64,000 nt of DNA from positions 1-64,000 of the forward strand of contig CASDZV010000088.1 of assembly GCA_949285905.1 (NCBI GenBank), read 5' to 3'. Positions 30,815 to 48,244 of this stretch are shown piece after piece; within the stretch, counting starts at the first letter, position 1, and every line of letters begins with the position of its first letter. Origin of the DNA: an uncultured Spirochaetales bacterium (GTDB taxonomy: Bacteria > Spirochaetota > Spirochaetia > Sphaerochaetales > Sphaerochaetaceae). The notes under the pieces were generated by a model. It was given only the letters and a program-made list of their open reading frames with translations. It did no database searches and had not been told where the DNA came from. The position numbers and the translations under genes are program-made.

Positions 30815-30821
30815 GGAAATA

Positions 30822-31547: not shown

Positions 31548-31610
31548 ACTTCCCAAAACAGCAGTAAACATCTACCATAGGGAAAGATCTGAATATATTT
31601 TGAGGTACAC

Positions 31611-32753
31611 ATGGAAATCTGGATTCACATTTACTCCATCTTAATGCTTGTTCTCGGAATATATTCGCTGCTGAACATTATCATCAATCTCCTCTATTTC
31701 AGACATCTCAACAAAGCAGAGACGCGCGAGGACGGGCCGCTTATCTCTGTTGTTGTTCCTGCAAGAAATGAAGAGAAGAATATCGGGAATCTCCTGGAAT
31801 CTCTCATTGCACAGGATTACAGGAAGATCGAGATACTTGTCATAAACGACCAGAGCACAGATGGAACAGAAGCTATCATCAGGGAGTATGCGGAAAAAGA
31901 CAGCCGCATACACTGCTTCTCCACAGAAGCCGGCAAGATTCTTCACAGCAATGGCAAGATCAACGCACTTCTGCAGCTGATTCCACATGCGAAAGGAGAA
32001 TACATACTGGCAACTGATGCTGATACAATGCATAGTAAAAACTGCATTTCCCACGCATATTCTGTCATGAAGGAACATCATCTTGATATCATCTCAGGCT
32101 TCCCGAAGGAGCTTTGCTCATCGTATTTCGGATCGCTCTGCATGTCTGCGATGATGCTTACATATGTCTTCATACCACATTGGTTTGTTTACCGATTCCC
32201 TATTCCAGCTGCGACATTCGCAATCGGGCAGTTCATCATGATGAGACGCGATGCATACGAGGAAACAGGTGGATACGAGAGTATCAAAGGTGAAATCTGC
32301 GACGATATAGGAATCGTCCGCCTCTTTGTGAAAAAAGGAAAGCACTATGCTTTCATCGATCTGTCAAAGTATTCCTCATGCCTTATGTACAGAACTGGAA
32401 AAGAATCATTCAAAGGCATTGAGCGTTCTATATCCGGCGTGTTCCCACCACGCCTGTGCTATGTTCCGCCCGTCACTATTCTTGTGATCCTGCTGCTGCA
32501 CATAGCGCTCTCCCCTCTTGCCTCAATTCTCGCGGCTTTTACGGCGCCGGGAAATATAGCTGCCATGATGATTACAGGTTCTGTCCTCTTCATCATCGCC
32601 TGGTACACAGGATGCAAAAGCGCCAAGTGGCGCAAACGTGTATCCATCTCATGTTCATTCACCCTTCTCATCATCATTGCAATGTATCTCCACGGCTTCT
32701 TCAGAAGCGTGACAGGAAAAGGTTTTGAATGGAAAGGCAGGATTATTCACTGA
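31611..32753 (+). CDS. Membrane glycosyltransferase family 2
   Basis: 380 residues. An N-terminal membrane helix (IYSILMLVLGIYSLLNIIINLLYF) precedes the GT-A domain with VVVPARNEEKNIGNLL, ILVINDQSTDGT and the DxD motif ATDADTMH. C-terminal helices at about 283-365 anchor it again. The layout resembles CrtQ-like and hopanoid/carotenoid glycosyltransferases. The donor and acceptor are unknown. GAGGT lies 6 bases before the ATG. Confidence 0.85.
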   Translation: MEIWIHIYSILMLVLGIYSLLNIIINLLYFRHLNKAETREDGPLISVVVPARNEEKNIGNLLESLIAQDYRKIEILVINDQSTDGTEAIIREYAEKDSRIHCFSTEAGKILHSNGKINALLQLIPHAKGEYILATDADTMHSKNCISHAYSVMKEHHLDIISGFPKELCSSYFGSLCMSAMMLTYVFIPHWFVYRFPIPAATFAIGQFIMMRRDAYEETGGYESIKGEICDDIGIVRLFVKKGKHYAFIDLSKYSSCLMYRTGKESFKGIERSISGVFPPRLCYVPPVTILVILLLHIALSPLASILAAFTAPGNIAAMMITGSVLFIIAWYTGCKSAKWRKRVSISCSFTLLIIIAMYLHGFFRSVTGKGFEWKGRIIH

Positions 32754-32871
32754 ATCTCCTGAGCAAAAATTGCATAGCCTGAAATTAATTCTCATCAATG
32801 CATACGTTTTTTGTTGAAATTCAAACTTATTATGTTATCATCAGATATAGCCATATGGGAGGTGGTGTACT

Positions 32872-33054
32872 ATGTCAATCCACGAAGAACTTCTCTCTCA
32901 GATTGAGACCTATGTTGCAGAAAGCAATCGATTTGAACAGAAAGGGGTGAAGGCATCAGCTGCGAGAGCAAGAAAAGCGCTGACTGAGATTTCAAAACTC
33001 TGCAAAGAAAGGAGAAAAGAAATACAGGAATCAAAGACAGCGGCAGAAGCATGA
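32872..33054 (+). CDS. Histone H1-like protein (Hc1 family)
   Basis: 60 residues, rich in Lys, Ala and Glu. GVKASAARARKALTEISKLCKERRKEIQ closely matches the central repeat of Hc1-type proteins such as Chlamydia HctA and the short versions in Bacteroidetes and spirochaetes. It probably binds and compacts DNA. GGGAGGTGG lies 8 bases before the ATG, a very strong site, and a perfect terminator follows, so this is a short, highly expressed monocistronic gene. Confidence 0.7.
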   Translation: MSIHEELLSQIETYVAESNRFEQKGVKASAARARKALTEISKLCKERRKEIQESKTAAEA

Positions 33055-33087
33055 GCCGCAATTGCTATCAATTTTCAGCAAGCAACG

Positions 33088-33115
33088 AGACGACCAGAAG
33101 GTCGTCTTTGTTTTT
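33088..33115 (+). terminator. Rho-independent terminator of the histone-like gene
   Basis: AGACGACC, a 4-nt loop, GGTCGTCT and then TTGTTTTT. Confidence 0.9.
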
Positions 33116-33219
33116 CTCTAGCCAAGAACACCTTCCGCTGATATCATTAGCGCCGACACTTAATACAAAAAGGGCTGGCCTGGCCAGACAGATATTCATG
33201 GAGTGAAGGACACACAGAA

Positions 33220-34572
33220 GTGAACGAGAAGATGATTACGAATCAGTGGTTTATCGGACGTCAGAATGACAGCGAGTCTTCTGCCAGGAGCTATCCGAGG
33301 AAATTCCCATTTGCGCTGAAGAAAGCGAAAGGATCATGGGTTGAAGATGTTGAAGGAAACAGATATCTTGATTTCCTCTGCGGCGCAGGAACACTTGCAC
33401 TGGGACATAATGATGAGAGCGTCAACCAGGCAATGATTGAATTGATACAATCAGGAGCACCACTGCATACGCTGGACCTGACAACTCCCGTAAAAGACAA
33501 ATACGTCGAGACTATCTTCTCGATCCTTCCCCGCGAGATGCAGGGCAATGTGAAAATACAGTTCTGCTCACCTTCCGGAACAGATGCCGTCGATGCGGCT
33601 ATTAAGCTCTGCAAGACAGCAACAGGACGTGGCACAGTCATTGCATTCAGCGGAGGCTACCATGGAATGGGTCATGGAGCACTCGCTCTCACTGGAAATC
33701 TGGGAGCTAAATCAAAAATACAGGGTCTCATGAGCGGTGTGCAGTTCATGCCTTACCCCTATTCATACCGCTGTCCGTTTGGCCTCGGAGGTGAAGAAGG
33801 CGTAAAAGCCGCCTGTTCATACTTTGAACGCACGCTCAAAGATCCAGAAAGCGGCATAGCTAAACCCGCTGCTGTGATCATAGAACCAATTCAGGGTGAA
33901 GGCGGAGTCATACCTGCCCCTGCATTGTTTCTGCAGACAGTACGCCGCGTGACAGAAGAACTCGGCATCCCGATGATCGTCGATGAGATACAATGCGGCA
34001 TAGGCAGAAGCGGTCAGGTTTTCGCATTCGAAGAGAGCGGAATAATTCCAGACGTCATCCTGATGAGCAAGGCTATTGGCGGCAGCCAGCCGATGAGCGT
34101 TGTCGTTTATAATAAGGAACTGGACAAATGGGCACCTGGCGCACATGCAGGTACATTCAGAGGCAATCAGCTGGCGATGGCAGCAGGAACTGTGGTGCTG
34201 GAAAAAATCTCAGAGCCTGAATTCCTCAGTGAGGTGAGAAGGAAGGGAAAGAGAATAAAGAGCGCACTGGAAGAACTGCAGAAGGAAGTCAGCATAATCG
34301 GAGATGTCAGAGGACGTGGTCTCATGCTTGGCATTGAATTCATCAATCCAAATGGTGAGAAGGATATCATGGGGCATCCGGAAGCTTCAGGAACAATAGC
34401 ATCTGATGTACAGAAACGATGCTTTGAAAAGCACCTAGTGATGGAGAAAGGCGGACGCAATGGCAGTGTCATGCGCTGTCTGTGCGCTCTGACTGTAACT
34501 GATGACGAAATTGATACAATGCTTTCCATCTTCTCAAGTGTCGTGAGGGAAATCGACAGTGAACTTAAATGA
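33220..34572 (+). CDS. dat: L-2,4-diaminobutyrate:2-oxoglutarate aminotransferase
   Basis: 450 residues, class III aminotransferase. The N-terminal ARSYPRKFPFALKKAKGSWVEDVEGNRYLDFLCGAGTLALGHN and the central IEPIQGEGGVIPAP ... IVDEIQCGIGRSG match the DABA aminotransferase (Dat/EctB) group; the PLP Lys lies in LMSKAIGGSQPM. It makes 2,4-diaminobutyrate from aspartate semialdehyde and glutamate. The start is GTG 33220 behind GAAGGA; an ATG at 33232 is the alternative. It overlaps ddc by 14 bp, the same gene order as in Acinetobacter and Vibrio. Confidence 0.88.
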   Translation: MNEKMITNQWFIGRQNDSESSARSYPRKFPFALKKAKGSWVEDVEGNRYLDFLCGAGTLALGHNDESVNQAMIELIQSGAPLHTLDLTTPVKDKYVETIFSILPREMQGNVKIQFCSPSGTDAVDAAIKLCKTATGRGTVIAFSGGYHGMGHGALALTGNLGAKSKIQGLMSGVQFMPYPYSYRCPFGLGGEEGVKAACSYFERTLKDPESGIAKPAAVIIEPIQGEGGVIPAPALFLQTVRRVTEELGIPMIVDEIQCGIGRSGQVFAFEESGIIPDVILMSKAIGGSQPMSVVVYNKELDKWAPGAHAGTFRGNQLAMAAGTVVLEKISEPEFLSEVRRKGKRIKSALEELQKEVSIIGDVRGRGLMLGIEFINPNGEKDIMGHPEASGTIASDVQKRCFEKHLVMEKGGRNGSVMRCLCALTVTDDEIDTMLSIFSSVVREIDSELK

Positions 34573-35986
34573 CCACACAGTTCTCTCACCGTCAGAAAGT
34601 GACAGAACAGCTTTCAGGAAGGCAATATACGATACAGTAGATGCAATCCTCGCTTCCATTGCAGACGATAACGCATTCTCCGGCATCAATCCGTATAAGC
34701 TGAGAGAGGAAATCACGGCACTGCCATTTCTGACAGATTGCGGAGAGAGCTGGGAGAGTGTTCTCAGCTCTCTGAAGACATCTGTGCTGCCGCATATGCT
34801 GCGCACATGGTCGCCTTCATACATGCCGCATCTCCACTCTCCTGTTCTGATAGAATCTATAGCATCTGAATTAATCATCGCTGCATACAACTCCTCAATG
34901 GACAGCTGGGACCAGGGGCCTGCGGCGACAGAGATTGAAGTAAAGACAATCAAGGAGCTCTGCTCGCTTTTCGGCTACGGCCCTGAATCAGATGGAGTCT
35001 TCACATCAGGAGGAAGCCAGTCCAACATCTCTGCAGCAATTGCTCTTCGTGACAGATATATCAGCAAGAAAATGGGCTGGGACACAAAGAAGAAAGGACT
35101 GCCTGAATCCTTCAGCAAGCTCAGGCTCTATACATCTGAGATATCACACTTTTCCTTCGACAAAGCCGCACACATGATGGGCCTCGGCTATGATGCTGTT
35201 GTCAAGCTTCCTGTTGATGAGAACGAACGCATCGACACAGAAAAAGCGAGAATAATCATCCGCAGTGACGCAGAGAACGGGCTTTACCCATTTCTCATAG
35301 CTGCGACTATCGGAACAACGGATTTCGGAAGCATCGACAACGTTCAGGAACTGAGAGGAATCGCAGATGAGCACGGCATGTATCTTCACGCAGATGCTGC
35401 TTATGGTTCCGGTGCAATTCTCTCTTCATACAGAGAACGGATTGGCGAACTTTCTCTTGCGGATTCAATCACTGTTGATTTCCACAAGATGTTCCTGCTA
35501 CCGATCAGTGCCTCTGCTCTCCTCGTCAAAGATAGTGCAACACTTGATACGTTCCAGCTCCATGCTGATTACCTCAACCGTGAAGAGGATGAGGAAGATG
35601 GGTACATAAATCTGGTTGGAAAGTCGCTACAGACGACACGACGCTTCGATGCGCTCAAAGTCTATATCTCATTCCGTATGAGAGGGAGAGAAGGATACAG
35701 GGCAATAATGGATAAAGCGATTGAGAATGCCTCTTATTTCCATTCCCGTATCTTACAAGACGATGCATTCATCGCTCCTCTCTCACCGGAGCTGAGTTCT
35801 GTAGTATTTGCGCTCAAAGGCGGAGATGAAAGGAACAAGAGAGCAAGAAGGATGCTGCTTTCTGAAGGTATTGTCATCGGACAGACAGTACACAAGGGAC
35901 AGGTCATGCTTAAATTCACGCTTCTAAATCCATCGCTCACTCATGAGCATATTGACACTCTGATCGGGAAAATCAGACAAATGTGA
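34559..35986 (+). CDS. ddc: L-2,4-diaminobutyrate decarboxylase
   Basis: 475 residues of the group II PLP decarboxylases. Landmarks are SWDQGPAATEIE, VFTSGGSQSNISAAIALRDRY, the Asp/Ala pair HADAAYGSG, and the PLP Lys in DFHKMFLLP. Paired with Dat it converts diaminobutyrate to 1,3-diaminopropane, the precursor of norspermidine. The GTG start has GAGGGA 8 bases upstream. The last 56 bp of the gene are part of a 61-bp direct repeat whose second copy lies at 48262, so the gene end appears to be the integration point of an island. Confidence 0.88.
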   Translation: MNLNDHTVLSPSESDRTAFRKAIYDTVDAILASIADDNAFSGINPYKLREEITALPFLTDCGESWESVLSSLKTSVLPHMLRTWSPSYMPHLHSPVLIESIASELIIAAYNSSMDSWDQGPAATEIEVKTIKELCSLFGYGPESDGVFTSGGSQSNISAAIALRDRYISKKMGWDTKKKGLPESFSKLRLYTSEISHFSFDKAAHMMGLGYDAVVKLPVDENERIDTEKARIIIRSDAENGLYPFLIAATIGTTDFGSIDNVQELRGIADEHGMYLHADAAYGSGAILSSYRERIGELSLADSITVDFHKMFLLPISASALLVKDSATLDTFQLHADYLNREEDEEDGYINLVGKSLQTTRRFDALKVYISFRMRGREGYRAIMDKAIENASYFHSRILQDDAFIAPLSPELSSVVFALKGGDERNKRARRMLLSEGIVIGQTVHKGQVMLKFTLLNPSLTHEHIDTLIGKIRQM

Positions 35987-35991
35987 TGCAC
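35931..35991 (+). repeat. 61-bp direct repeat, left copy (3' end of ddc)
   Basis: Identical to 48262-48322 except for G at 35945 versus A at 48276. It covers the last 17 sense codons of ddc, the stop codon TGA and 5 bases beyond. Sequence outside the repeat is unrelated on both sides. Confidence 0.95.
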
Positions 35992-36060
35992 GTCACAAAG
36001 CAGGAGCCGTAGGAAGAGAAATCTTTCACCTCCTGTGTTTTCCTCCTGCTAATTTACCGA

Positions 36061-37998
36061 TTACAGCCATTCATTTGCCGTAAGCTTGCGGATTTCTTTC
36101 ATGTCGAAATACTTTTGAACCATTTCAAGAATCTCTACTCTCACATCACTGTTCCGTATATTCTTTATTTCAGCAAGAATCTTCTCTTTTTCATAATCCC
36201 TGATAAACCCGCCTTCACCAAGGTATCTGGCTGCTACAAGATTCTTATTCTCCAATGCAACCAGGAAAGGAGTTTTACCTTCAGCATTGAATTCCGTCAG
36301 GAAGGTTTTATTTGCTAACGAATCAAAAATGTGCCATTCAACTCCTGAAAATGAGGATGTTTCCTTTCTGATTGCGGCAAGCTCACACCCAATATTTCTT
36401 TCAAGCCAGGCAATATCAGGATCAGCACCATTCGAAATGAGAAATTCAATTGTATCATCAGCATACCTATCCAATGCCTGGGTCAGTGGAATCATGTTCA
36501 TATTATTTGCCCTGTTGATGTTTTCCTTGTCTTTTCTTACTACCATACTGAGAAAATCCGAGTCAAAACAAGGCTGCCTGACAGCTTGGTGAACAGGAGT
36601 GAAGCCAAGAGGATTAGCAAATCCTGATCCAGCGATGTCGAGCAGATCTGAAATTTCTTTATCGTCTTCTTCGGTACTGTGTCTTAATGCTCTTGAACAT
36701 ATAAGCTGAAGAAGAAGAGCTCCTGCTTCTGCTTTAATGCTATCAATATTCAGCTCAGTTGAAGTCTTTCCTCTTTCTGTGAACATTTTCCTCTCATCAT
36801 CTTTCATTAGAAATCTGTATGATGCGAGCTGATCAAAAATAAGCCATGATGTGGAGATATCACGAGACCAGTCCCAGCAGAATTCATAAAACAGACTATG
36901 TTCATCATTGCAAGCGTCAATAACAGAGGATTTCCTCAAAATCTTTGAAAAGCATGCGGGGAAAAGATTAAGACTGCGGACAGCTAAGTGCAGAATTCCA
37001 TATTCATGCATCTCAAATACGAAGGCAGGCATGTGAGAAATTAGTCTTTCAATATACGTGCATAGCTTGATATCGATATCTCTGATTAACGTAATTGCCG
37101 GGTCATGAATGAAACATGGATTCAGTCTGGAGAATTCTGCAGCAGTGGATACGAAGATAAATAGCAGATGATAAAAATCTTCATGAGAGAAGTGATATAC
37201 CCCTCGTCCTATCAATTTGCATATATTATCGTAGGCCTTGAAGAAACTGATATCATCCTTAAACCACAAATCACGGTCAGAATCAGTGAAGACATTGAAT
37301 CGACAACCATTTCTGACAAGACGTTCTATTGATTCATATGAACAGGTGCTGATTGCAGTGTCTAGGATAGATGAGTACTCTGGCATATGATTTATTTTGT
37401 TATATGAGATATACCACTGTTCTCGGTCTGTTCCAGCCCAGCTGATGAATTTTATCGACACTGAATTACAGTTATGAAGATACCTTTCGACAATTTCAGA
37501 GAAACTATCCAGGACAGTCAGATTTTTCAGGATCAGGACAGGTTTTGCTGCTTTCTGCCCATATCCTACCAGAACTAGTCTCTCATATTTTACTGGATCA
37601 AGATCAAAATAGTCTGTTATCTGAGGTGAAATTATGATTGTTCCGCATTCCTTCTTATACTCGGCACAGAAAGTCCTGAAGTGAAGGTTATCGAAATCCT
37701 TTTTATTTCTTAGCTGAATAGCATCAGCATTTACCCCATTAGCAAGCAAAATGCAGAAATCAAACGCTTCAGACAACGCCCATTCAGAATCTAGTTTGAA
37801 GTACAGTGTTTTGTATTCATGGTTCAGGAGCTGCTCTACTGACAGCCCGTCCAAGCATGTGATATCAGCTTCAAATCCATATATATCATCTTCTCTACGG
37901 CCAGCATAGAAAGCAAAAACTTTCTTACCATGGGCATGCAATAATATTTTACCTTTTGTAGAAACTGAAAGGCTTGTGTAATCATTAAACTCACTCAC
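36061..37998 (-). CDS. Ankyrin-repeat protein ANK-A
   Basis: 645 residues from a GTG at 37998 with GGAGGT 4-5 bases upstream, the same spacing as the esterase gene. The N-terminal about 180 residues are alpha/beta with hydrophobic strands (KTLYFKLD, GTIIISPQITDYF, ERLVLVGYG). The middle about 300 residues are helical. The C-terminal third holds ankyrin repeats: GFTPVHQAVRQP, MIPLTQALDRYADDTIEFLISNGADPD and GKTPFLVALENKNLVAARYLGEGGF. The last helices (KEKILAEIKNIRNSDVRVEILEMVQKYF) match the end of ANK-B. There is no signal peptide. Its promoter carries the island operator; a 7-codon open frame lies between promoter and start. Confidence 0.75.
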   Translation of the reverse strand: MSEFNDYTSLSVSTKGKILLHAHGKKVFAFYAGRREDDIYGFEADITCLDGLSVEQLLNHEYKTLYFKLDSEWALSEAFDFCILLANGVNADAIQLRNKKDFDNLHFRTFCAEYKKECGTIIISPQITDYFDLDPVKYERLVLVGYGQKAAKPVLILKNLTVLDSFSEIVERYLHNCNSVSIKFISWAGTDREQWYISYNKINHMPEYSSILDTAISTCSYESIERLVRNGCRFNVFTDSDRDLWFKDDISFFKAYDNICKLIGRGVYHFSHEDFYHLLFIFVSTAAEFSRLNPCFIHDPAITLIRDIDIKLCTYIERLISHMPAFVFEMHEYGILHLAVRSLNLFPACFSKILRKSSVIDACNDEHSLFYEFCWDWSRDISTSWLIFDQLASYRFLMKDDERKMFTERGKTSTELNIDSIKAEAGALLLQLICSRALRHSTEEDDKEISDLLDIAGSGFANPLGFTPVHQAVRQPCFDSDFLSMVVRKDKENINRANNMNMIPLTQALDRYADDTIEFLISNGADPDIAWLERNIGCELAAIRKETSSFSGVEWHIFDSLANKTFLTEFNAEGKTPFLVALENKNLVAARYLGEGGFIRDYEKEKILAEIKNIRNSDVRVEILEMVQKYFDMKEIRKLTANEWL

Positions 37999-38062: not shown

Positions 38063-38086
38063 TTATTGATGCTGTTGTCTGTTCAT
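38063..38086 (-). other. 7-codon leader frame or start remnant (MNRQQHQ)
   Basis: The ATG lies exactly 6 bases after the TATCAT of the ANK-A promoter, and its first codons Met-Asn-Arg-Gln match the start of ANK-B; it stops after seven codons. It is out of frame with ANK-A, which begins 64 bases further on. It may be a leader peptide or the remnant of an older ANK N-terminus. Confidence 0.45.
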
Positions 38087-38092
38087 GGGTTA

Positions 38093-38126
38093 ATGATATC
38101 TGCAAAAGTGTACAATTATTTATACA
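38093..38126 (-). promoter_or_regulatory. ANK-A promoter with island operator
   Basis: Read on the minus strand: TGTATAAATAATTGTACA (38126-38109), 10 bp, TATCAT (38098-38093), then 6 bp to an ATG. The same arrangement precedes ANK-B and ANK-C. Confidence 0.65.
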
Positions 38127-38177
38127 GAAAATATCACCAGATTCCGCATATTGTTTCGAATCAAAGGAACCGTTCGG

Positions 38178-38225
38178 AAAAAACAAGAATCCAATCTGAC
38201 TTCGAGCTGAAGCGTTGGATTCTTG
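38178..38225 (-). terminator. Terminator of the WYL-ANK-B-DUF262 operon
   Basis: An 11-bp perfect stem (CAAGAATCCAA / TTGGATTCTTG), with an inner CTTC/GAAG stem in its loop, is followed on the minus strand by six T. It lies about 85 bp after the stop of the second DUF262 gene and isolates ANK-A as its own transcription unit. Confidence 0.8.
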
Positions 38226-38309
38226 CACTCTTATTCAAAGACTAGCTGGAAAGGATATGAAACTCTTCATGCAGAACTTAGCACTAACCTCCGCATGATG
38301 ATTCTCTCC

Positions 38310-40628
38310 TTATTTTGATTCCACTACATATTCATCTAAACGGCTAATTAAGTTTACAGCCTCCTGCTGTATTGCAGTTTTAATACTTTTTTCATCGTTT
38401 AGTGTAGACACTCTAACATTAATTTCAATTACTGGCTCCCATTTGCACGAATAATCTATACATCCATTCTTTATCGGGACTTCAGAAATAAAAGTTTTGT
38501 ACTCCTTGTAGTCAATATTCAAAGAAAAGATTTTATCGCATCCCGAATAGCGGAAATATAGATTATCACCTCTGTATCTGTTGTACTCACCTTCTCGTGG
38601 AACTGAATACCTGAGGACAAAATCTGAGTTTTCCAAGTCTGGGATTTCCACATCCCGATACAACCAGCCTTTCTTCTCATGATTCCAATGAACGTAGCAT
38701 GGAATCATCTTTTTGCATTGTTTAAGCATGGAACAAAACAGTTCATTGTTGACACCCAACCAATATATTGAATTATCGGCACTTTTGATTTGTTTTGCCG
38801 CGCCATCGAGCATATACCACTCATTTCCAGATTTATTTCGAGGATAAACGCATGGGTACCCGTAATACCATCTGTAGCGCATCATTCTCTCATCTTTTCG
38901 TTTGTCAGCAGCAACCATTTTACCGAGTTCAATAAGATGTTTCCTGATTGAGATAAAATCAGTTTTGTCATTTCTTTCATCGTTAATAAAGTATCTGTGC
39001 GTAAAATCAGAATAAGCACGATCAAGAAACACTTTCCTCCAATGAAGGTCTGTGGACACTTTTGTGTCAAAAAGAAAACACTCATGAAGTTCCCCGATTT
39101 CTGATTCCATCACGAAGCGTTCAAAAAGCTCCGATGGAAAGTTTGTTAATTCTTTATCTTCAGCCCCAACCTTAAAAACATCGAAAAACTTATCTGTTTT
39201 ATCTTTAAAACTGACCCAATCTACTTTTCCAGTTTCATTTCTGAATAAGAAACGGACAGCACCATTTGCAAAGCTGAAATTCTCAGCCTTAATGAGCAAA
39301 GTTGTCTGTTCGTCATTTGCTCCTGCTTTTTGAACTTCTTCTTCGAACTGATCAAATAAATTTGAAGCTTTTGATTTGAGCTCGTCAAACTTATAATCTT
39401 TCAGTGCTTTTGCTATGTCTTCTTTCTTTCTGCCTAGTTCAGTGAGCAATTTAACTCTTTCAATTGAAGGCGTTGTGTTATCAAGGATATTACATGCAAA
39501 TCGCATCCATCCTTCCAGATTATCCTGATGAGTACGCTCATCAATACCGAAAAATGCTACACATGACGCTAATATCTCAGAAGGGATTTTCCCCTCTGGC
39601 GCTAATGATGCTTTTTTCCTACTCGGCAGAATATCAGTCAATGCTTTATAGGAAACATCTTCTTTAGAAAAGAAATCAAAGAATGCAGTTAAGGTTTTTA
39701 TTGCATACGATTCCTCAATGCCTGCATTCTTAATGCTTTCGAAATAATCATCAAACGCAATGTAGAGATCCTTCTCGCACGATATTTTCTTTGCGGTATT
39801 CTCTTTGGGCACTTCCAGAAAAGAAAACCAGCTGCGGATAACATACATGATTGTATCCGTCACATTTTTATCAATGTCGTCATTCTCATTCTTGTTACAT
39901 TTTGAAGCAAACAGTTTCTCATAGAAACTATTAGCTGCTTTAACAAACCTATCATCTTTGAATTTCTTCACAATACCGGATTTGAATATCTCAAACTCTG
40001 TAAGCGCTCTTCCTCTTGCATTCATTGTGCAGAAAACATTGTCAGGAAGGTTGCTGTGCAATTCCATGAATGTGATTTTGCTTAACCGCTCAAGACAATC
40101 ACTTGCTGTCAATGATTGTTTTTTTTCAGTTCCTTTGTCTTTGAACATGGTCATAATCATGGAATAAGTCCGGGCAAGCCCTTCTGCTGTGGGACTATCA
40201 TGCCATAATTCAGGAATAGTCAGTTTTGCAAAATCACTTTCGCCTGAAAGAAGTTCTTTTATATATTGCTCAGCCTTATCCCTCGCTTCAAAGTGGAAAT
40301 TCCGCAGGACATTTAACTTATTGGCCGTATTTTTATCCTTCTCGCAAACAGCTTTTTTAAAAACATATGCATAAACGAGGAACAATGTAGTAAGTCGTTG
40401 TTGGCCGTCTATCGGATAATACCTTCTGATGTCATTATTCCGAGAATCCCCATATGTGAAATCAAGTGTGAGTGCAGTGTCACCGAATATCGCATCCAAT
40501 ATCGATGAGATGAACAGCTTCCGGATATTTCTAGCCTCTGTGTTATCTCGACCTTGGGCATAATCTCTTTGCATTGCAGGAATTACTATGATGTGATCCG
40601 CCAGAAATTCTTCAAGATTTGTTTCCAT
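38310..40628 (-). CDS. DUF262 protein, second subunit of a GmrSD-like pair
   Basis: 772 residues. The ATG at 40628 was chosen because GGAGGGGG lies 6 bases upstream; a start 7 codons earlier would place that site inside the gene. IPAMQRDYAQGR (16-27) and PIDGQQRLTTLF (72-83) are the ParB/Srx-like DUF262 signature, in which DGQQR is thought to bind a nucleotide. The remaining about 650 residues are helical and then beta-rich, with many Trp/Tyr (MRYRWYYGYPCVYPRNK, YVHWNHEKKGWLYRDVEIPD). I see no HNH motif of the GmrD kind. The gene overlaps the upstream DUF262/DUF1524 gene by 17 bp, so the two products are probably made in fixed ratio and work together. Confidence 0.8.
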   Translation of the reverse strand: METNLEEFLADHIIVIPAMQRDYAQGRDNTEARNIRKLFISSILDAIFGDTALTLDFTYGDSRNNDIRRYYPIDGQQRLTTLFLVYAYVFKKAVCEKDKNTANKLNVLRNFHFEARDKAEQYIKELLSGESDFAKLTIPELWHDSPTAEGLARTYSMIMTMFKDKGTEKKQSLTASDCLERLSKITFMELHSNLPDNVFCTMNARGRALTEFEIFKSGIVKKFKDDRFVKAANSFYEKLFASKCNKNENDDIDKNVTDTIMYVIRSWFSFLEVPKENTAKKISCEKDLYIAFDDYFESIKNAGIEESYAIKTLTAFFDFFSKEDVSYKALTDILPSRKKASLAPEGKIPSEILASCVAFFGIDERTHQDNLEGWMRFACNILDNTTPSIERVKLLTELGRKKEDIAKALKDYKFDELKSKASNLFDQFEEEVQKAGANDEQTTLLIKAENFSFANGAVRFLFRNETGKVDWVSFKDKTDKFFDVFKVGAEDKELTNFPSELFERFVMESEIGELHECFLFDTKVSTDLHWRKVFLDRAYSDFTHRYFINDERNDKTDFISIRKHLIELGKMVAADKRKDERMMRYRWYYGYPCVYPRNKSGNEWYMLDGAAKQIKSADNSIYWLGVNNELFCSMLKQCKKMIPCYVHWNHEKKGWLYRDVEIPDLENSDFVLRYSVPREGEYNRYRGDNLYFRYSGCDKIFSLNIDYKEYKTFISEVPIKNGCIDYSCKWEPVIEINVRVSTLNDEKSIKTAIQQEAVNLISRLDEYVVESK

Positions 40629-42336
40629 GATATTCCCCCTCCAGTCCAAACAGTTTTTTCAGCTCAGTCAAGTACTTGGTCATAGCTTCTTTATTCCATT
40701 CATTTTCCAGACTGTTATATTTTTCCTCGACACAGAAAGGAATGTACTCTCTCTGGGTTTCACAGGCATCTTTGATAACATCACACTTCAACGGATAAAT
40801 AGCATTTCCGAATCCCCTGTTTATTGTTGCAGGTAACAGTACAAGATTTCCAATGGAATCCAGCCAGGTTTCTTCATCTCTTTGTGGTGTAATAATGTAA
40901 TAACCGCTGTCATCTTTTTCCATCTGACCACTTCCTTCCTTTGATCTGATAACAATGCTATTAATGAGGCAGACAAGATATTGCAGACCAGAGAGTCCGT
41001 TGTAGAAAGTATCGACATCTCTATCAAACTTATCGGAGACTACTCCATCTTTCTCTTTGACTAATTCCAATTTGTCATTAATGAACTTCGCATACTCATC
41101 ATCACTCTTGATATATCCAGCTCTGATAATTGCTTCTAAAAGCGCTTTAACATCCTTAGAAGTGGGTTCTCCTTGATTTCTGGCATGAATATGTTCTATA
41201 TCCCATTCAGTAGAAGCATATCGGACAAAATCAAAAGGAAGGTGCTCGTCGGAATATCTCAGAATCATTGAAAGGAATAGCAACGGATAAATAATTTTAT
41301 CATCAACACCCTTTTTCAGATTTTCAATTCTCTTATTATTAAGCACGCCAACAGCCGCGCCTTTCAGCTCTTCAAAGAAAGAGAATTGTTTATTTTCAAA
41401 CTTCTTTGAATATATGTCCTTGAAAACAGAGAATTCTACCTCTGCTTCTTTTTTATTATAAAGACGGTACCCAGTGTAATTATGTACGTCTGCATTGAGG
41501 TAGCAGTAGGAATAGAGGAAATCCAGAACATACTTTTCCAATTTATCAAAACTGAGCTCTTCCCTCATTTTTTTGTACAGGAAGATAGAATCTTTTTCAT
41601 AAAGTTCTGCAAATTCTTTATAGCACTCATCTTCTCTGCAATTTGCGAAAAAGAGTTCGAGGATATAATCCATCCTTGTTGCCTGATATCTTCTGCTTGC
41701 ATGCTTCGGACAGATGAAGAAAAAGAAATCATCATTCTGCAGAAGCGCTTCAATCCGCTGCCATCGGGAAGCCCTGTTCTTCTGCCCGATTCTTCCCTTT
41801 TCCTCTGAGACCCAGTCTGCTTTGAGGAGTTCTGCAGAACTTAATGGGATTTTACCTGTGTTAATCCTCTCAAATACCTTTGCTGCGTCCTCTTTTGTTC
41901 CATCTATTTCATAGACAAAGAATCTGCATTTGTTGAGTTTTTTCCTGAACTGATCCTTATCCTTGACATTTGCCCCATCTTTAGCATGTTTAATGAAACA
42001 TAAATCAGAGGGATTACGGGATATCTTCTCCGTTTCTCCAAGCAATTCTTTTACCGTTTCGTTATCTTCATTACAGAGCCGTTTCAATATTGCTATTGTT
42101 GTAAGTCTCTGCTGTCCATCAACAATGTCATAGGATTTATCGTCACTGTTTTTCTGACGAATGAGAACATTGAGAAAGTATCCATCTTCTTGTTTGTCAT
42201 CTGATGCTTCTATATCTTCAATAAGCTCATTTACTTCCTCTGGTCTCCAGCGATATCCCCTCTGGTAATCAGGAATCGTATAATGATCTTCAAATAATTT
42301 TGTTACAGTTACAGGCTCCTCTATGAGAGAACTCAT
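40612..42336 (-). CDS. DUF262/DUF1524 protein (GmrSD-type endonuclease)
   Basis: 574 residues. The N-terminal DUF262 domain has IPDYQRGYRW (21-30) and IVDGQQRLTTIAIL (71-84). The C-terminal DUF1524 region has WDIEHIHARNQ (378-388) and IGNLVLLPATINRGFGNAIYPLK near 500-525, the His-Me-finger nuclease pattern of GmrD. In E. coli GmrSD this family is a Type IV restriction enzyme cutting glucosylated cytosine DNA; DUF262 proteins also occur in other phage-defence systems. GAGGAGGGG lies 5 bases before the ATG. It lies 61 bp after ANK-B with no terminator between them, so it belongs to the WYL-ANK-B operon. Confidence 0.85.
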   Translation of the reverse strand: MSSLIEEPVTVTKLFEDHYTIPDYQRGYRWRPEEVNELIEDIEASDDKQEDGYFLNVLIRQKNSDDKSYDIVDGQQRLTTIAILKRLCNEDNETVKELLGETEKISRNPSDLCFIKHAKDGANVKDKDQFRKKLNKCRFFVYEIDGTKEDAAKVFERINTGKIPLSSAELLKADWVSEEKGRIGQKNRASRWQRIEALLQNDDFFFFICPKHASRRYQATRMDYILELFFANCREDECYKEFAELYEKDSIFLYKKMREELSFDKLEKYVLDFLYSYCYLNADVHNYTGYRLYNKKEAEVEFSVFKDIYSKKFENKQFSFFEELKGAAVGVLNNKRIENLKKGVDDKIIYPLLFLSMILRYSDEHLPFDFVRYASTEWDIEHIHARNQGEPTSKDVKALLEAIIRAGYIKSDDEYAKFINDKLELVKEKDGVVSDKFDRDVDTFYNGLSGLQYLVCLINSIVIRSKEGSGQMEKDDSGYYIITPQRDEETWLDSIGNLVLLPATINRGFGNAIYPLKCDVIKDACETQREYIPFCVEEKYNSLENEWNKEAMTKYLTELKKLFGLEGEYHGNKS

Positions 42337-42397
42337 TATTTCCCCTCCTCTTCATTCGTTTATTTCAAGTTTTAATCAGATGTATTTTAGCATGGGG

Positions 42398-44515
42398 CTA
42401 TATAAATCGTTCGGCATCTCGACAACAGCAAGAGTTGTTATTCATTTTCACCCCATTAGCAATTATCCTGCAATACAGACCATCAAGTTCCGCACGCATT
42501 GATGCTGTATTCACCCTGTCTATCTGCTTCCGGATGTATTCCAGGTCAGAATCCTGCACATAGCCGTTCTTCACAAGAAATCTTATCGCCGTCATGTTCA
42601 TATATTTGAACGCTGTCATCACCGGCGTGAAACCATAATTATCAGTTAAGAGGAAAGCTTTCTTGTCTTTTATATTTCCAATGATATTCCAGGCTTCTTC
42701 ATCAACTCTGAAAGAGCGAGCAGCTAAATGAATGGCAGTTTCACCTATCTTGTTCTGGATTGCCCCATTAACTCCATGATTGATTAGGAAAGATAGCTTC
42801 TTGTTATTATCCCAGTTGTCCCAATATGCACGGATTGCATACATCAGAGCTGTGTCTCCAGCCCAATCTGTCGCATTAATTCCTATACCAGCTTTTAATA
42901 TGTCGTCAAAAAGCTCTGGATCATACCTGTAACTGATTAGATGCATCAGAACATTGCTTCCATCCTTTATGAAGACAGCTTTCTGGAGAGCATCGCAATC
43001 TTTCAAAAGCTTCTTGAAGATATCTTTGAACACCTCTCTTCGATATCCCTCAGCAAAACACAAAGCATCAACAACTGCAGGGATATATTCATGTAGATCA
43101 TAATCAACTATGCCTTCAATGCGTTTCTGAAATTCACGGTAAAAGTGTGTAGTACAAAAGCTTCCATTCCTATTTATATTATCAACCTGTACATCAGAAT
43201 TTCCGAACAGTTCAAAAACTTCCTCACCCGCACCATAAGTACTCAAATAATAAAGTGCATTGTTTCCATCATCATCAACTAACCATGGTTCCTTCGTGAA
43301 TTCTAAAATCGTCTTGTATAGTTCTGGGAGAAAATATCTGCCATATAGAATTTCACTTGCATACATGAGCAGAGTTTTTCCCTCGTCATCACGAAAGGAA
43401 AAGACTTCTTCCGGAAAGAATGCGGATAATCTTCTGAATTCTGAGCAGAATTTCCTTTCCGCAGTCGGCAATTCTCTTTGATTAAAATACTGCCCGCTCT
43501 CTTTGCATGTCCTTGTATATCTCAGAAATGAAACGGCTATATAAAAAAGCTCTTTAATTTCGGCCTTGTAGCCATTTTCCAGAAGCCAGCAAATTTTATT
43601 AAAGCTTTCAATATCCATAGTGTCATCTGATGGCAGTTCTGCAAGTCCGAATAAATCATCCTCGATATATGACTCGGCTCTGTACGTATCTCCGCATTTC
43701 AATAAAAAGGTAACAATCTCGTCCATGGATGTATCTTGCAGATTAATTGCCGTTTTCAGAAGCGAAGTACTCCCCGGCATTATCGGCCCTGGTTTTCCAG
43801 GATATCCGAGTATTGAGACAAATTTCTCCACAACATCTAACCTTCCAGTCTTGATGAAATATTTTGAAAGTTCCTGCCATTCATTCTTTCTGAGGGACTC
43901 CCTTACCTTGCTGTCTTCGAGTGCAGAAAGCAAAAATGAAGTGAAAGGACATTCATCCGGCTGCAAAACAGTATGTTCAAAGACTATCCTATGTCCCTCC
44001 CATTGCCGTTCATTCTCTGGAGTATCAATGATCAAGAACCTGAGATTGTTTTCCTCACTAAGGAACTGCCGAATCTGTGTTTTCTCATATTGGCCCAGAT
44101 CTCTACCATCAATAATGAAAAACCTGTTAAATGGTTTATTTTGCATCAATGCGAGTCCAGCAGATACATTACAACTCTCTGCCCATGAAAAGTGATCAAG
44201 CCCAGACTCTTCTGTGACAAAAACGATGTTCAGATCCTCAAACATTATGACTGATATTGCTGCTAGAACTGCAGTGCACCAGTAATCAGGAGATATCATT
44301 ATCCTTATGTCCTTATCTTTATGTAAAAACCAACGATAACTTCCTCTGCTGTAACAGGTAATATTGTATTGTGCCTCACCATCTTTTATAGCAGCACGTA
44401 TACACAAATTACGAAAGTCTTCAAATATTCCACAAAATGGCTCACGGGACAGCTGGTGAGCATAGTTTCCTGTAATTCGCGCAGTGAAATCAGATATGTT
44501 TGTTTGTCTATTCAT
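42398..44515 (-). CDS. Ankyrin-repeat protein ANK-B
   Basis: 705 residues. Residues about 60-190 form an alpha/beta region with hydrophobic strands (IRIMISPDYWCTAVLAAISV, LNIVFVTEE, RFFIIDGRDLGQYEKT, LRFLIIDTPENER). The order of strands resembles a P-loop ATPase, but there is no Walker A motif. The rest is helical and ends in ankyrin repeats (GKTLLMYASEILYG, GNNALYYLSTYGAGEEVFELFG, GDTALMYAIRAYW, GETAIHLAARSF, GFTPVMTAFKYMNMTAIRFLVKNGY). The final 15 residues contain CCC. The start (MNRQ) lies 6 bases after TATCAT in the shared promoter; GAGGT directly abuts the ATG, too close to be a normal binding site. Confidence 0.75.
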   Translation of the reverse strand: MNRQTNISDFTARITGNYAHQLSREPFCGIFEDFRNLCIRAAIKDGEAQYNITCYSRGSYRWFLHKDKDIRIMISPDYWCTAVLAAISVIMFEDLNIVFVTEESGLDHFSWAESCNVSAGLALMQNKPFNRFFIIDGRDLGQYEKTQIRQFLSEENNLRFLIIDTPENERQWEGHRIVFEHTVLQPDECPFTSFLLSALEDSKVRESLRKNEWQELSKYFIKTGRLDVVEKFVSILGYPGKPGPIMPGSTSLLKTAINLQDTSMDEIVTFLLKCGDTYRAESYIEDDLFGLAELPSDDTMDIESFNKICWLLENGYKAEIKELFYIAVSFLRYTRTCKESGQYFNQRELPTAERKFCSEFRRLSAFFPEEVFSFRDDEGKTLLMYASEILYGRYFLPELYKTILEFTKEPWLVDDDGNNALYYLSTYGAGEEVFELFGNSDVQVDNINRNGSFCTTHFYREFQKRIEGIVDYDLHEYIPAVVDALCFAEGYRREVFKDIFKKLLKDCDALQKAVFIKDGSNVLMHLISYRYDPELFDDILKAGIGINATDWAGDTALMYAIRAYWDNWDNNKKLSFLINHGVNGAIQNKIGETAIHLAARSFRVDEEAWNIIGNIKDKKAFLLTDNYGFTPVMTAFKYMNMTAIRFLVKNGYVQDSDLEYIRKQIDRVNTASMRAELDGLYCRIIANGVKMNNNSCCCRDAERFI

Positions 44516-44521
44516 ACCTCA

Positions 44522-44554
44522 ATGATAAAACTTATGTGTACAATTTTCTGAACA
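44522..44554 (-). promoter_or_regulatory. ANK-B promoter with island operator
   Basis: Read on the minus strand: TGTTCAGAAAATTGTACA (44554-44537), 9 bp, TATCAT (44527-44522), then 6 bp to the ATG. The operator covers the -35 position. Confidence 0.7.
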
Positions 44555-44563
44555 GTAGAATCT

Positions 44564-45565
44564 TTATTTCTTGTATCTTTGAATCATGGACTCAAGCTCT
44601 TCCTTCACTTGTTCCCTCATGTTCTCAGGCTTGAGCAGAGTGGCACTTGAGCCCATACTCATAAGCCATTTCTGAAGACCATAGGAACTTGCTGTCTTGA
44701 GTGTGAATAGATAGTTTCCATCTTCACGCTGTCTGAATGTAACACTCTCTGGCCAGGCTTTCTGAATCTCATACCATCCCTGATATTCATCAATCAGAAC
44801 CTCCGCGATGAATGGTTTTTCTGTCTGGTAGAAAGGGAACGGATCATCAAAATCATTGCACTGTTCTGGCTCTGGATAATCTTCCTTTTTAAGCTTTACC
44901 AGCCTGACGATTCTTGATAACGCCAACAGCTGTCTCTGTCCATAGATGTTGATAACTTCAGCGTAGACCGCACCGTCCTGCACGATGACTTTGTTCGGAT
45001 AGATATCATATTCCACCTCAGCCTCTGAGTTTCTGCTTTCATAGACTACATGACACTTAATTCTTTTCTCTGAGGATTCAAGAAGGAGAAGCAACGTCTT
45101 GAAGTATTCTGGAGAAAGCTTGAAAAATGAACCGAACCTTGAGAAAAGAGGCTTGATTTCTGTCTTTGTCTTCGGATTAATTACCATTCTCAGCCTGGAA
45201 ATGAATTCAGAACCACACATCTCCATAAGAGGTGATGTTGAAGATGCTGTTTCCAGAACGAAATTAAGGAAACGGATATCGTCTTCACTCAACACTCCGC
45301 TGACAATGCTGTTCTTCCATCTGGCTGCTGTATCAGGTTCAATCTTGTACAGCATCTTTCTGCTTCCATCCACTGATTTCTCTGTATAATATGCAAAGCC
45401 CATTTCATCCAAAGTCTCAAGCACATTGAAAGCTGAAGAACGATTATTAACTCCCAGAATGTCCATTATCTCATATATCGTACATCCCCTTTCTTCTCTT
45501 TCTGTAATCAGAGAGGCAACAGCAAATACCTTGGCAAATCGTGACCATACTTTTCCTTCTTTCAT
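44564..45565 (-). CDS. WYL-domain transcriptional regulator
   Basis: 333 residues. A winged-helix HTH lies at about 15-65 (CTIYEIMDILGVNNRSSAFNVLETLDEMGFAYY). A WYL domain spans about 150-225 (IKCHVVYESRNSEAEVEYDIYPNKVIVQDGAVYAEVINIYGQRQLLALSRI), followed by a WCX-like C-terminus (FIAEVLIDEYQGWYEIQKAWPESVTFRQREDGNYLFTLKTA). Such proteins often repress defence operons (BrxR, CapW) and sense a nucleic-acid or nucleotide ligand. GAGGT lies 6 bases before the ATG. It is divergent from ANK-C, and the operator lies between them, so it probably controls itself, ANK-C and, through the same site, ANK-A and ANK-B. Confidence 0.85.
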   Translation of the reverse strand: MKEGKVWSRFAKVFAVASLITEREERGCTIYEIMDILGVNNRSSAFNVLETLDEMGFAYYTEKSVDGSRKMLYKIEPDTAARWKNSIVSGVLSEDDIRFLNFVLETASSTSPLMEMCGSEFISRLRMVINPKTKTEIKPLFSRFGSFFKLSPEYFKTLLLLLESSEKRIKCHVVYESRNSEAEVEYDIYPNKVIVQDGAVYAEVINIYGQRQLLALSRIVRLVKLKKEDYPEPEQCNDFDDPFPFYQTEKPFIAEVLIDEYQGWYEIQKAWPESVTFRQREDGNYLFTLKTASSYGLQKWLMSMGSSATLLKPENMREQVKEELESMIQRYKK

Positions 45566-45585
45566 ATTTGTACCTCGATTGAAAG

Positions 45586-45631
45586 ATTATCGCACTACTG
45601 TACAGGATTTTAAACACTTATTGGTTACCAT
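45586..45631. promoter_or_regulatory. Divergent WYL / ANK-C promoters with island operator
   Basis: For ANK-C: TGTACAGGATTTTAAACA (45599-45616), 9 bp, TACCAT (45626-45631), 6 bp to the ATG. For WYL on the minus strand: an extended -10 TGC-GATAAT (GATAAT at 45591-45586), with its -35 position falling inside the same operator. One bound regulator could block both promoters. Confidence 0.7.
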
Positions 45632-45637
45632 GGAGCC

Positions 45638-47566
45638 ATGAATAGAGAAGTAGAGAAATATTACATTAATCGTATCGATGAAAACCACTCTGTAAATTTC
45701 ATCAAAGAAGCTCTTGTTACTGGAATCAGGTCGGACAACGTCGAACTTACCAGAAAAGCAGCAAAAGCATTGCATTTCTCTGGCAAATTCTATGGGTACT
45801 TTTCTCCACTGGAATTTGCCATTAAAGAAATGGCTTCAGCAGAAGTAATCAGTACACTGCTAGGGGCAGGATATGAACTATCCAAGCCTTGCCATGATCT
45901 CACACCATTTGATGGATCTCCTCAAAAGCTTATGGATTTATGGATGGAAACCAGTGGGAAAACAAAAGAAGAAGCCTTAGTGGTTCTTGCTGCTGATATC
46001 AACTACTTCTTCCATGTGATAAGGACTGATTATTCCTGCTACAGGATTTCTTATGACATAGATGCAGATGACAGGTACAAGCCCTGCTTCTGGAACTATC
46101 TTGATGAATGGATGTCTGCTTTTATCAGGCTTCTGGCCGAGAATAAGAAACTTGAAATCGTAGATTCATATTTTGTAAGGAGCATCATTGAAAATGAGGA
46201 ACTGAGGAAATCATTTATTACCTTCTTTGACCTGCTCTCTTCAGATATAAATGATGATGATCTTTCCTGGTACATCAACATAGCTGTCGCTGATGATAAT
46301 GAATACGTTTTTGAGCAGCTTATAAATCACAGACCGGAACTTTTGAATCGAATCGATTGCTATCCATCACGAAGCAAAATGATTCTGAAGTGTCTCTTTG
46401 ACAACGGTATCCTTCTCCCTGGTACAGATGAAGGATTCAATGCATTCATTCCCCGCATTGCATTCGGAGAGAATGATAAGGAAATCCTGTTTGCAATTGC
46501 ACACCCATCATATTCAATACGCACATCGGAAGAAGGAAAAACATCGTTGATGTATGCAATAGAGAATAAGGATTTTCCTGTCGAGCTATATAAGCTCCTC
46601 ATCGCCTCACCTGAGGATGTCAACAAACAGGATGAAGATGGAAGGACAGCCCTGCATTACATGGCAAAGACTGAATATCCTGAGTGCATGGAAAACCTTC
46701 TGGAACTTGGTGCAGATCCATTCATTACAGATAACAGAGGGAACAATGTCCTGCACATCCTTGCAGAAAACAAAGAAGGTCTCTCAATTGATATTTTCAG
46801 TGATTGCATCTCGCACCTTCCCCAAAAACTTCTCAACATGGAAAACAGCAATGGTATGACACCAATTACTCTATTTTTCCAAAGGCTGACAGGAACAGAG
46901 GAAGATCTCTATAAGAAACTTTCTTTTAATCAATTTCTTGAACAGTATCTTGTCTCTCCGGAGTCTTTGAATGGGAATATCCTTATAGGTGGCATAGTTA
47001 ATGAGGCAAGATTTCAGACACTCTCATTGGTACGGAATCACATAATCAGACAACTCACCGACAGGGAAATTGAACATGAAGTGGTCACCGACAAAACACC
47101 AGAGGATACTGTGTCCCTGCTTGAGAAACTTGCGGATGACAGTAATGATATTTTTCATCTTGTAGTTATAGACGAAATCTATGATTGTCAGAGCCCGGAA
47201 CTTGGAGTACGGTTTGAATATGCCATAAATCGTCTGGTTGGAAATACAGACGTCCTCATCATTGCAGCTTCAAAATTCAGCTCAGCTGACATAATCACCG
47301 ACATAATCCAGCATGCATTCCCATACAGGATTACGTCAAAGCAGTCTAGTGACCTTAACAGCAAGATTTTCATCGATGAGGATTATGCTGCATATATCGC
47401 CAAGGATGAAGCCATCATCAAAGGCTTCGGTGACGATCTCCTGCTATGCGATCTTGAATCAAATGAAAAGGAAAGCGAGGAAATGGATGAAGATTCCATC
47501 GTTCTTGCTGAAGCCGAAAGAATCCTGGACAAGCATTTATCTGCCTTCAAGGAGCTTGCAAAATGA
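45638..47566 (+). CDS. Ankyrin protein ANK-C with degenerate FtsK-like domain
   Basis: 642 residues. The N-terminus (MNREVEKYY) and about 290 helical residues lead into ankyrin repeats at about 299-415 (GKTSLMYAIENKDFPVELYKLL, GRTALHYMAKTEYPECMENLLELGADP, GNNVLHILAE, GMTPITLF). The C-terminal region (446-606) follows the FtsK/SpoIIIE motor core. GNILIGGIVNEARFQTLSL stands where FtsK has its Walker A strand and GTTGSGKS loop, but the Gly-Lys-Ser is lost. LVVIDEIYD (508-516) is a good Walker B, and LIIAASKFSSADIITDII plus FPYRITSKQSSDLNSKIFID align with LIxATQRPSVDVITG and the following FtsK segment. It overlaps doc by 4 bp (ATGA). Confidence 0.75.
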   Translation: MNREVEKYYINRIDENHSVNFIKEALVTGIRSDNVELTRKAAKALHFSGKFYGYFSPLEFAIKEMASAEVISTLLGAGYELSKPCHDLTPFDGSPQKLMDLWMETSGKTKEEALVVLAADINYFFHVIRTDYSCYRISYDIDADDRYKPCFWNYLDEWMSAFIRLLAENKKLEIVDSYFVRSIIENEELRKSFITFFDLLSSDINDDDLSWYINIAVADDNEYVFEQLINHRPELLNRIDCYPSRSKMILKCLFDNGILLPGTDEGFNAFIPRIAFGENDKEILFAIAHPSYSIRTSEEGKTSLMYAIENKDFPVELYKLLIASPEDVNKQDEDGRTALHYMAKTEYPECMENLLELGADPFITDNRGNNVLHILAENKEGLSIDIFSDCISHLPQKLLNMENSNGMTPITLFFQRLTGTEEDLYKKLSFNQFLEQYLVSPESLNGNILIGGIVNEARFQTLSLVRNHIIRQLTDREIEHEVVTDKTPEDTVSLLEKLADDSNDIFHLVVIDEIYDCQSPELGVRFEYAINRLVGNTDVLIIAASKFSSADIITDIIQHAFPYRITSKQSSDLNSKIFIDEDYAAYIAKDEAIIKGFGDDLLLCDLESNEKESEEMDEDSIVLAEAERILDKHLSAFKELAK

Positions 47567-47961
47567 TTGGTATAGCAAAAGAACAAATTTACTCAATACA
47601 TGAGATGGTTATAAAAAGGACAGGAGGTTCTCTTGGAGTGATAAACGATTCACTGATAGATTCTGCTATCAATAACATCTGGCAGACTTTTGATGGAATA
47701 GAGTTATATCCAACACTGACTGAAAAAGGCACCAGACTTGGTTATGCTTTAGTTAATAACCATTCATTCATGGATGGAAACAAGCGAATTGGGGTTCTTG
47801 TAATGCTTACCTTTTTCGCTATCAATCAGATGAAAGTAATCTGCAATGATGATGACATCACAGAAATCGGCATTTCTCTTGCATCTGGGACTATGGATTT
47901 CGCAGACCTCCTTGATTGGGTGAAAACACATTCATCTGTTTGCGGTTCTGTACAGACATGA
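47563..47961 (+). CDS. doc: Doc/Fic-family toxin
   Basis: 132 residues, the size of Doc (126). The Fic motif NHSFMDGNKRIGVLVML is complete (HxFxDGNKR), so it should be an active kinase/AMP-transferase-type enzyme; phage P1 Doc phosphorylates EF-Tu and stops translation. The usual Phd antitoxin is absent. Instead the start overlaps the end of ANK-C by 4 bp, which suggests that ANK-C controls or neutralises it. The stop is followed after 31 bp by the zinc-finger gene. Confidence 0.88.
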   Translation: MIGIAKEQIYSIHEMVIKRTGGSLGVINDSLIDSAINNIWQTFDGIELYPTLTEKGTRLGYALVNNHSFMDGNKRIGVLVMLTFFAINQMKVICNDDDITEIGISLASGTMDFADLLDWVKTHSSVCGSVQT

Positions 47962-47992: not shown

Positions 47993-48244
47993 ATGGCAAA
48001 CTATTACTGCAAACATTGTGGACAGAAATTCTCAAGTGTGAATTCACTGACATCACACAGCTGCCCAAGACATCCCAATGGAATGTTTAAGGGAAAGCAC
48101 GAACTGTATGAAGGCAGTGAAAAATCAAAATACACTTGCAAGTATTGCGGACAAACCTTTTCCTCTATCAAGAGCATGACAGATCATAGCTGTCCAAGAC
48201 ATCCTGATGGTGTTTTTAAGGGGAAACATTCTCCTGCTTTATAG
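47993..48244 (+). CDS. Double zinc-finger miniprotein
   Basis: 83 residues made of two near-identical units: YYCKHCGQKFSSVNSLTSH, SCPRHPNGMFKGKH, then YTCKYCGQTFSSIKSMTDH, SCPRHPDGVFKGKH. Each has Cys-x2-Cys-x12-His-x-Cys-x2-His, close to a C2H2 finger with an extra Cys. CGGAGG lies 9-10 bases before the ATG. It is the last gene of the ANK-C-doc transcript and could bind DNA, RNA or the partner proteins. I cannot name a family; similar short repeats occur in other gut bacteria as far as I recall. Confidence 0.75.
   Translation: MANYYCKHCGQKFSSVNSLTSHSCPRHPNGMFKGKHELYEGSEKSKYTCKYCGQTFSSIKSMTDHSCPRHPDGVFKGKHSPAL

Follow-up and report, generated by a model that had tools for sequence, protein, structure and literature searches.

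An operator–box–start codon unit shared by the ankyrin genes of a defence-like island and linked to its WYL regulator

What reads a promoter design that is used three times within one genomic island, and does the reader switch these promoters on or hold them off? The window analysed here is a stretch of 64,000 nucleotides from an uncultured Spirochaetales bacterium (contig CASDZV010000088.1, assembly GCA_949285905.1). It carries an island with three ankyrin genes (ANK-A, ANK-B and ANK-C), a pair of GmrSD-like genes and a gene, wyl, for a regulator with a WYL domain. The first-pass annotation had described an 18-bp near-palindrome upstream of each ankyrin gene, followed by a gap, a −10-like box, 6 bp and a start encoding Met-Asn-Arg, and had proposed a single regulon run by the local WYL regulator. 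The three 18-mers, the gaps of 10, 9 and 9 bp, the boxes TATCAT, TATCAT and TACCAT, and an ATG-AAY-AGA start after a further 6 bp are all as described. The elements of these promoters are the following.

38109..38126, minus strand: operator A, TGTATAAATAATTGTACA, one of the three TGTWYA-N6-TRWACA sites in the genome
38093..38098, minus strand: −10-like box TATCAT of ANK-A, 10 bp from operator A
44537..44554, minus strand: operator B, TGTTCAGAAAATTGTACA, the second of these sites
44522..44527, minus strand: −10-like box TATCAT of ANK-B, 9 bp from operator B
45599..45616, plus strand: divergent operator C/wyl, TGTACAGGATTTTAAACA, the third site, conserved in loci L040, L060 and L061
45626..45631, plus strand: −10-like box TACCAT of ANK-C, 9 bp from operator C
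45584..45591, minus strand: wyl −10 region, either TAATCT (45584–45589) or GATAAT (45586–45591) with TG before it

The half-sites of the three operators are imperfectly symmetric (5/6, 5/6 and 4/6 positions). With the A of the ATG taken as +1, the ANK-B and ANK-C operators span −39 to −22 and the ANK-A operator −40 to −23, so that the near half-site lies at about −27 to −22 and the operator centres lie 30–31 bp upstream of the predicted transcription start, the usual place of a −35 element. The claim that the operator of the divergent wyl/ANK-C region covers both −35 positions is right as to position, but no −35 hexamer can be recognized there: at spacers of 16–18 the best hexamers match TTGACA at 2.2/6 positions on average, no better than random. 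Operator C is also 9 bp from a TANNNT box (TAATCT) on its wyl side. The wyl box can alternatively be read as an extended −10 (TGC-GATAAT, 45586–45591), in which case the wyl promoter appears self-sufficient (TTTAAA-17-GATAAT with TG before it, 9/12), with its −35 inside the operator.

The same spacing recurs well beyond the window. Across 17 loci with 18 full operators, and hence 36 operator sides, a TANNNT box stands 9 nt away in 12 cases and 10 nt away in 11, while every other gap accounts for zero to three sides, except for seven at gap 2. Among operators scoring at least 11/12, the distance from box to ATG is exactly 6 nt in 14 cases, no other offset from 2 to 13 having more than one, and most of these starts read ATG-AAY. 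Because the ATG is fixed relative to the box, leaderless mRNAs are predicted, a consequence that the first-pass annotation did not draw, and the ANK-B and ANK-C transcripts are accordingly predicted to start at the A of their ATG. An extended −10 was looked for at the predicted leaderless promoters and none is present. Our literature search found no paper linking leaderless mRNAs to WYL regulators; if true, leaderless starts tied to one regulator would be unusual, and they are directly testable.

Pattern searches of the genome of the window (2.35 Mb, 94% complete) gave three exact matches to TGTWYA-N6-TGTACA, all in the island; the spread to unrelated promoters that had been named as the refuting outcome was not seen. 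The symmetric form TGTWYA-N6-TRWACA likewise occurs at three places, all in the island (one match per strand for the reversed-pattern control), and the operator with a TANNNT box at 9–10 bp occurs on four sides, those of ANK-A, ANK-B, ANK-C and wyl (none for the control). Since the island sites themselves shaped the pattern, its genome count taken alone involves some circularity, from which the independent loci are free. In 139 genomes of the family, the full unit (operator, 9–10 nt, TANNNT, 6 nt, ATGAA) has 13 matches, ten of them in the WYL loci compared here. A slightly stricter pattern has six matches in 393 genomes of the phylum, five of them in these WYL loci and the sixth a poor palindrome (genome G076), which rules out a general promoter motif of the phylum. 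The genome-wide and family-wide searches also rule out chance occurrence, and a phage-borne cassette was ruled out by a viral collection that gave neither a relative nor a pattern match.

The candidate reader of the operators is encoded next to operator B.

44564..45565, minus strand: WYL regulator of 333 amino acids, with a winged helix-turn-helix (wHTH), WYL and WCX domain order, identified by domain search, sequence profile and Foldseek

The WCX domain is matched with an E-value of 1.5e-9 and the WYL domain with 0.0023, the latter below its curated cut-off; a structure model displays the wHTH, helices, WYL and WCX parts and places the protein among the wHTH-WYL-WCX factors. Its sequence profile retrieves DriD (E 6e-8) and PafBC from the PDB. 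BrxR and CapW are absent from this list, which is no proof against kinship since Foldseek and VIA-align list both; in the Foldseek ranking, DriD and PafBC come before CapW and BrxR. Of the conserved arginines that bind the single-stranded DNA ligand in DriD-type proteins, one (R218) is retained, the other positions varying within the subfamily. Among WYL relatives fetched mostly from the same family as the window genome, the operator stands upstream of wyl in 12 of the 15 subfamily loci and in none of 19 more remote WYL genes from related genomes (Fisher p 8e-7). Even where their overall identity is about 30%, the operator-bearing WYL proteins have a recognition helix that opens with a common motif, R-S-S/C-(A/I)-(F/Y). 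This co-occurrence, together with the confinement of the operator motif to the island within its genome, gives good support to the proposed regulon, in which the local WYL protein would bind the operators and control wyl, the three ankyrin genes and the GmrSD-like pair. The operator design is probably a private on/off switch of this regulator.

How the switch works, a point on which the first-pass annotation is silent, can be approached by comparison with characterized WYL systems. DriD promoters have a palindrome across the −35, at a single fixed distance from the −10, and their −35 matches only one or two of six positions (PMC12340889). SiwR acts at −26 (PMC10693628), and the near half-site of the island operators coincides with the position used by PafB and SiwR (−24 to −26). 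DriD of Caulobacter crescentus, a WYL activator, resembles the island regulator as a wHTH-WYL-WCX protein of about 330 amino acids, in its palindrome over a poor −35 at a constant distance from a weak −10, and in a divergent promoter at its own gene. The DriD-type arrangement is found here too, with 23 of the 36 sides at 9–10 bp and loci L041 and L042 as the exceptions. However, the DriD site (ATACGAC-N7-GTCGTAT) differs from TGTWYA-N6-TRWACA and serves damage-response targets, whereas the island regulon is purely local, its wyl gene is itself probably controlled and its target starts are predicted to be leaderless. For the mycobacterial activators SiwR and PafBC, too, the site of action is about −24 to −26, ahead of a −10 box that has no accompanying −35; PafBC, however, is a heterodimer with a non-palindromic motif, and the SiwR palindrome, 19 bp long, precedes DinB-like genes. 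The defence-locus regulators CapW (CBASS) and BrxR (BREX) are likewise WYL dimers that act on their own promoters through palindromes or inverted repeats. They are more distant from the island protein both by profile and by Foldseek, and their sites are placed differently: those of CapW overlap the −10 (PMC9122588) and the repeats of Escherichia fergusonii BrxR lie downstream of it, although the Acinetobacter BrxR site lies over the −35.

Because of the fixed geometry, the missing −35 hexamer and the closest solved relatives, DriD and PafBC, we lean towards activation, in which the WYL protein replaces the −35 contacts, over plain repression. A WYL dimer would bind the 18-bp operators through its winged helix-turn-helix domains, and its WYL domain would sense a signal; since no −35 hexamer is seen, we infer that the bound protein, once it has sensed this signal, keeps RNA polymerase on the weak TANNNT box in the manner of DriD, SiwR and PafBC. 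Transcription from the A of the ATG would then yield the leaderless mRNAs of ANK-B and ANK-C, and an ANK-A mRNA opening with a seven-codon open reading frame (ORF) ahead of a Shine–Dalgarno start. The divergent operator, lying over the wyl promoter, would probably repress or tune wyl. The output would be the ankyrin proteins and the GmrSD-like pair, an inducible, defence-like system.

Several observations weigh against this picture. In L041 and L042, whose WYL proteins are 52–55% identical to that of the window, several operators have no box at 9–10 bp; operators there adjoin the wyl Shine–Dalgarno sequence and the ankyrin start is not leaderless. Two loci, L044 and L063, have no operator. The window, L040, L060 and L061 are close orthologues, so the counts of loci are not fully independent and about ten distinct lineages remain. 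VIA-align Z-scores set DriD (13.8) and BrxR (12.5) little apart. Consensus −35/−10 pairs show no enrichment in front of 35 other genes from these genomes, which makes such scans uninformative and the missing −35 weak evidence. Finally, Acinetobacter BrxR, too, has its site over a predicted −35 (PMC9122589).

A plain repressor of the BrxR/CapW kind is a serious contender, even if we judge it the less probable account: ligand-free WYL would block RNA polymerase at the four promoters until an infection or damage signal releases it. Defence loci are repressed by BrxR and by CapW, the latter acting in both directions, and in the BrxR family, to which the Acinetobacter protein belongs, the characterized E. 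fergusonii member is a repressor. Operators over the −35 region would occlude the polymerase, the wyl promoter has a usable −35/−10 reading, and the L041 and L042 operators just before the wyl Shine–Dalgarno sequence fit a block. Yet a steric block needs no rigid spacing of 9–10 bp to the box, which is nevertheless seen in many lineages; the ANK promoters have no −35, and the nearest solved relatives by sequence are activators. The BrxR/CapW trait of an operator on or downstream of the −10 is not found at the ANK promoters and is possible at wyl in L041 and L042. For wyl itself, the self-sufficient promoter with its −35 inside the operator and the operators before the wyl Shine–Dalgarno sequence in L041 and L042 suggest autorepression.

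In L042, an identical 18-mer, TGTACAATAATATGTACA, occurs at 8460–8477 and 9487–9504, one copy directly before the wyl Shine–Dalgarno sequence, and a third operator lies at 9563. Autorepression or looping is possible there.

A wider form of the activator reading is more tentative, and we would not put it at an even chance. In it, this WYL subfamily would be an obligatory −35 substitute at leaderless promoters, with operator, box and first codon forming one rigid unit of about 45 bp. Unit and regulator would be kept as a cassette for fast-diverging ankyrin, FtsK-like and GmrSD-like defence genes, and defence would be switched on by activation, not derepression.

The likeness of the three promoters could also reflect descent rather than regulation, the ankyrin genes having been duplicated together with their upstream DNA. 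The ANK-A site has its box, first codons and part of its operator in common with the ANK-B site, which suggests that the ANK-A promoter site was copied from ANK-B. As an explanation for all three genes, duplication is nonetheless very unlikely: outside their repeats the ankyrin proteins ANK-A, ANK-B and ANK-C have little in common, half-sites and distances are constant while gaps and operator cores vary, and the operator–box–ATG unit precedes WYL-linked genes even where the WYL protein is only about 30% identical. That another host regulator reads the operator and that its adjacency to wyl is accidental is the least credible account, since, although many wHTH families bind TGT/ACA-type palindromes and WYL binding is deduced here, the motif is confined to the island within this genome and, across genera, accompanies this WYL subfamily.

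One part of the original description did not stand. The ATG-AAY-AGA sequence does lie 6 bp past all three boxes, but ANK-A itself begins elsewhere, and Met-Asn-Arg is rejected as its start.

38063..38086, minus strand: seven-codon ORF MNRQQHQ*, predicted to be leaderless, ATG 6 nt beyond the box
36061..37998, minus strand: ANK-A, ankyrin protein of 645 amino acids (Ank_2), with a GTG start behind GGAGG

The GTG at 37998, 88 nt downstream of the ATG at 38086, aligns with the start of the ANK-A homologue of L039 (40% identity). Should transcription begin at 38086, the leader of ANK-A would be 88 nt long and hold the seven-codon leaderless ORF. In L039, ANK-A follows directly behind ANK-B with a 4-nt overlap, and L045 has an ANK-A relative with its own, predictedly leaderless, operator. 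In L046 (13221–13290) an operator is followed by a broken leaderless ORF, VNKNIEKFLSN*, and in L060 (from 11674 leftwards) by an ANK-C cut to 50 codons. These broken ORFs, like the seven-codon ORF before ANK-A, are best read as remnants of lost genes.

The remaining genes of the island are as follows.

38310..40649, minus strand: GmrSD_N (DUF262) protein, 779-residue ORF (E 1.6e-19), with a likelier start at ATG 40628
40612..42336, minus strand: GmrSD_N and GmrSD_C protein of 574 amino acids (E 1.3e-31 and 1.2e-6)
42398..44515, minus strand: ANK-B, ankyrin protein of 705 amino acids, predicted to be leaderless, ATG 6 nt beyond the box
45638..47566, plus strand: ANK-C, 642 amino acids, ankyrin repeats and an FtsK-like C-terminal part, predicted to be leaderless, ATG 6 nt beyond the box
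47563..47961, plus strand: Doc/Fic-type protein (DOC_P1), overlapping ANK-C by 4 nt

The two GmrSD_N proteins come after ANK-B, and the island therefore resembles a restriction-type defence locus; GmrSD_N is present in both and GmrSD_C in the 574-residue protein only, and both a restriction activity and a defence role of the island are putative. Restriction pairs of the GmrSD/DUF262 family also comprise two adjacent GmrSD_N proteins, one with GmrSD_C, but the pairs seen here are accompanied by one to three ankyrin genes and a WYL gene. At its C-terminal end (46928–47563), ANK-C is related to the FtsK motor (profile E 1.4e-9), without a recognizable Walker A motif; Pfam gave no match for this part, and Foldseek with the whole ANK-C model chiefly returned ankyrin proteins, the FtsK link coming instead from the C-terminal profile. 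The FtsK-like part is a separate ORF in L064 (553–1065) and L065 (5498–5992). In NCBIfam, ANK-B and ANK-C hit Dot/Icm effectors, but far below the cut-offs, and these hits are explained by the ankyrin repeats alone. The Doc/Fic gene is probably part of the ANK-C transcript.

Among the window, L039 and L040, identity is 84–85% for WYL, 62–72% for ANK-C, 64% for ANK-B, 40% for ANK-A and 27–32% for the GmrSD pair, from which the regulator and operator appear steadier than the genes they control; ValRS, for comparison, is 87% (G041) and 74% (G039) identical. With L041 and L042 included, the GmrSD-like partners (38310–42336) are 25–32% identical. Judged by these identities, the regulator is kept while the GmrSD effectors diverge or are replaced. 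This makes the operator–box–ATG unit a specific probe for more defence-like genes in this group. In the literature consulted, the WYL regulators of phage-defence loci, BrxR and CapW, are repressors, while damage or stress responses are what the WYL activators DriD, PafBC and SiwR control; if true, activator-type geometry in a defence-like island would join the two groups.

Genome G492, which holds L061, is assigned to genus g12 and the window genome to g1, yet their WYL proteins are 85% identical, a hint that the cassette has been transferred horizontally. A family of 236–256 amino acids without a Pfam match, 50–74% identical, lies beside or near wyl in L038 (9032–9760), L045 (11201–11911) and L065 (8330–9100), and may be another cargo of the cassette. 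In L041 (1919–7895) the cassette adjoins lon, behind a gene for a STAND-like NTPase of 1117 amino acids, and the island of the window lies a few kilobases from lon and a U32 peptidase gene (27087–36000); the surroundings of lon may be a hot spot for insertions. Finally, an 83-residue ORF after the Doc/Fic gene (47993–48244) has two C2H2-type zinc-finger-like repeats.

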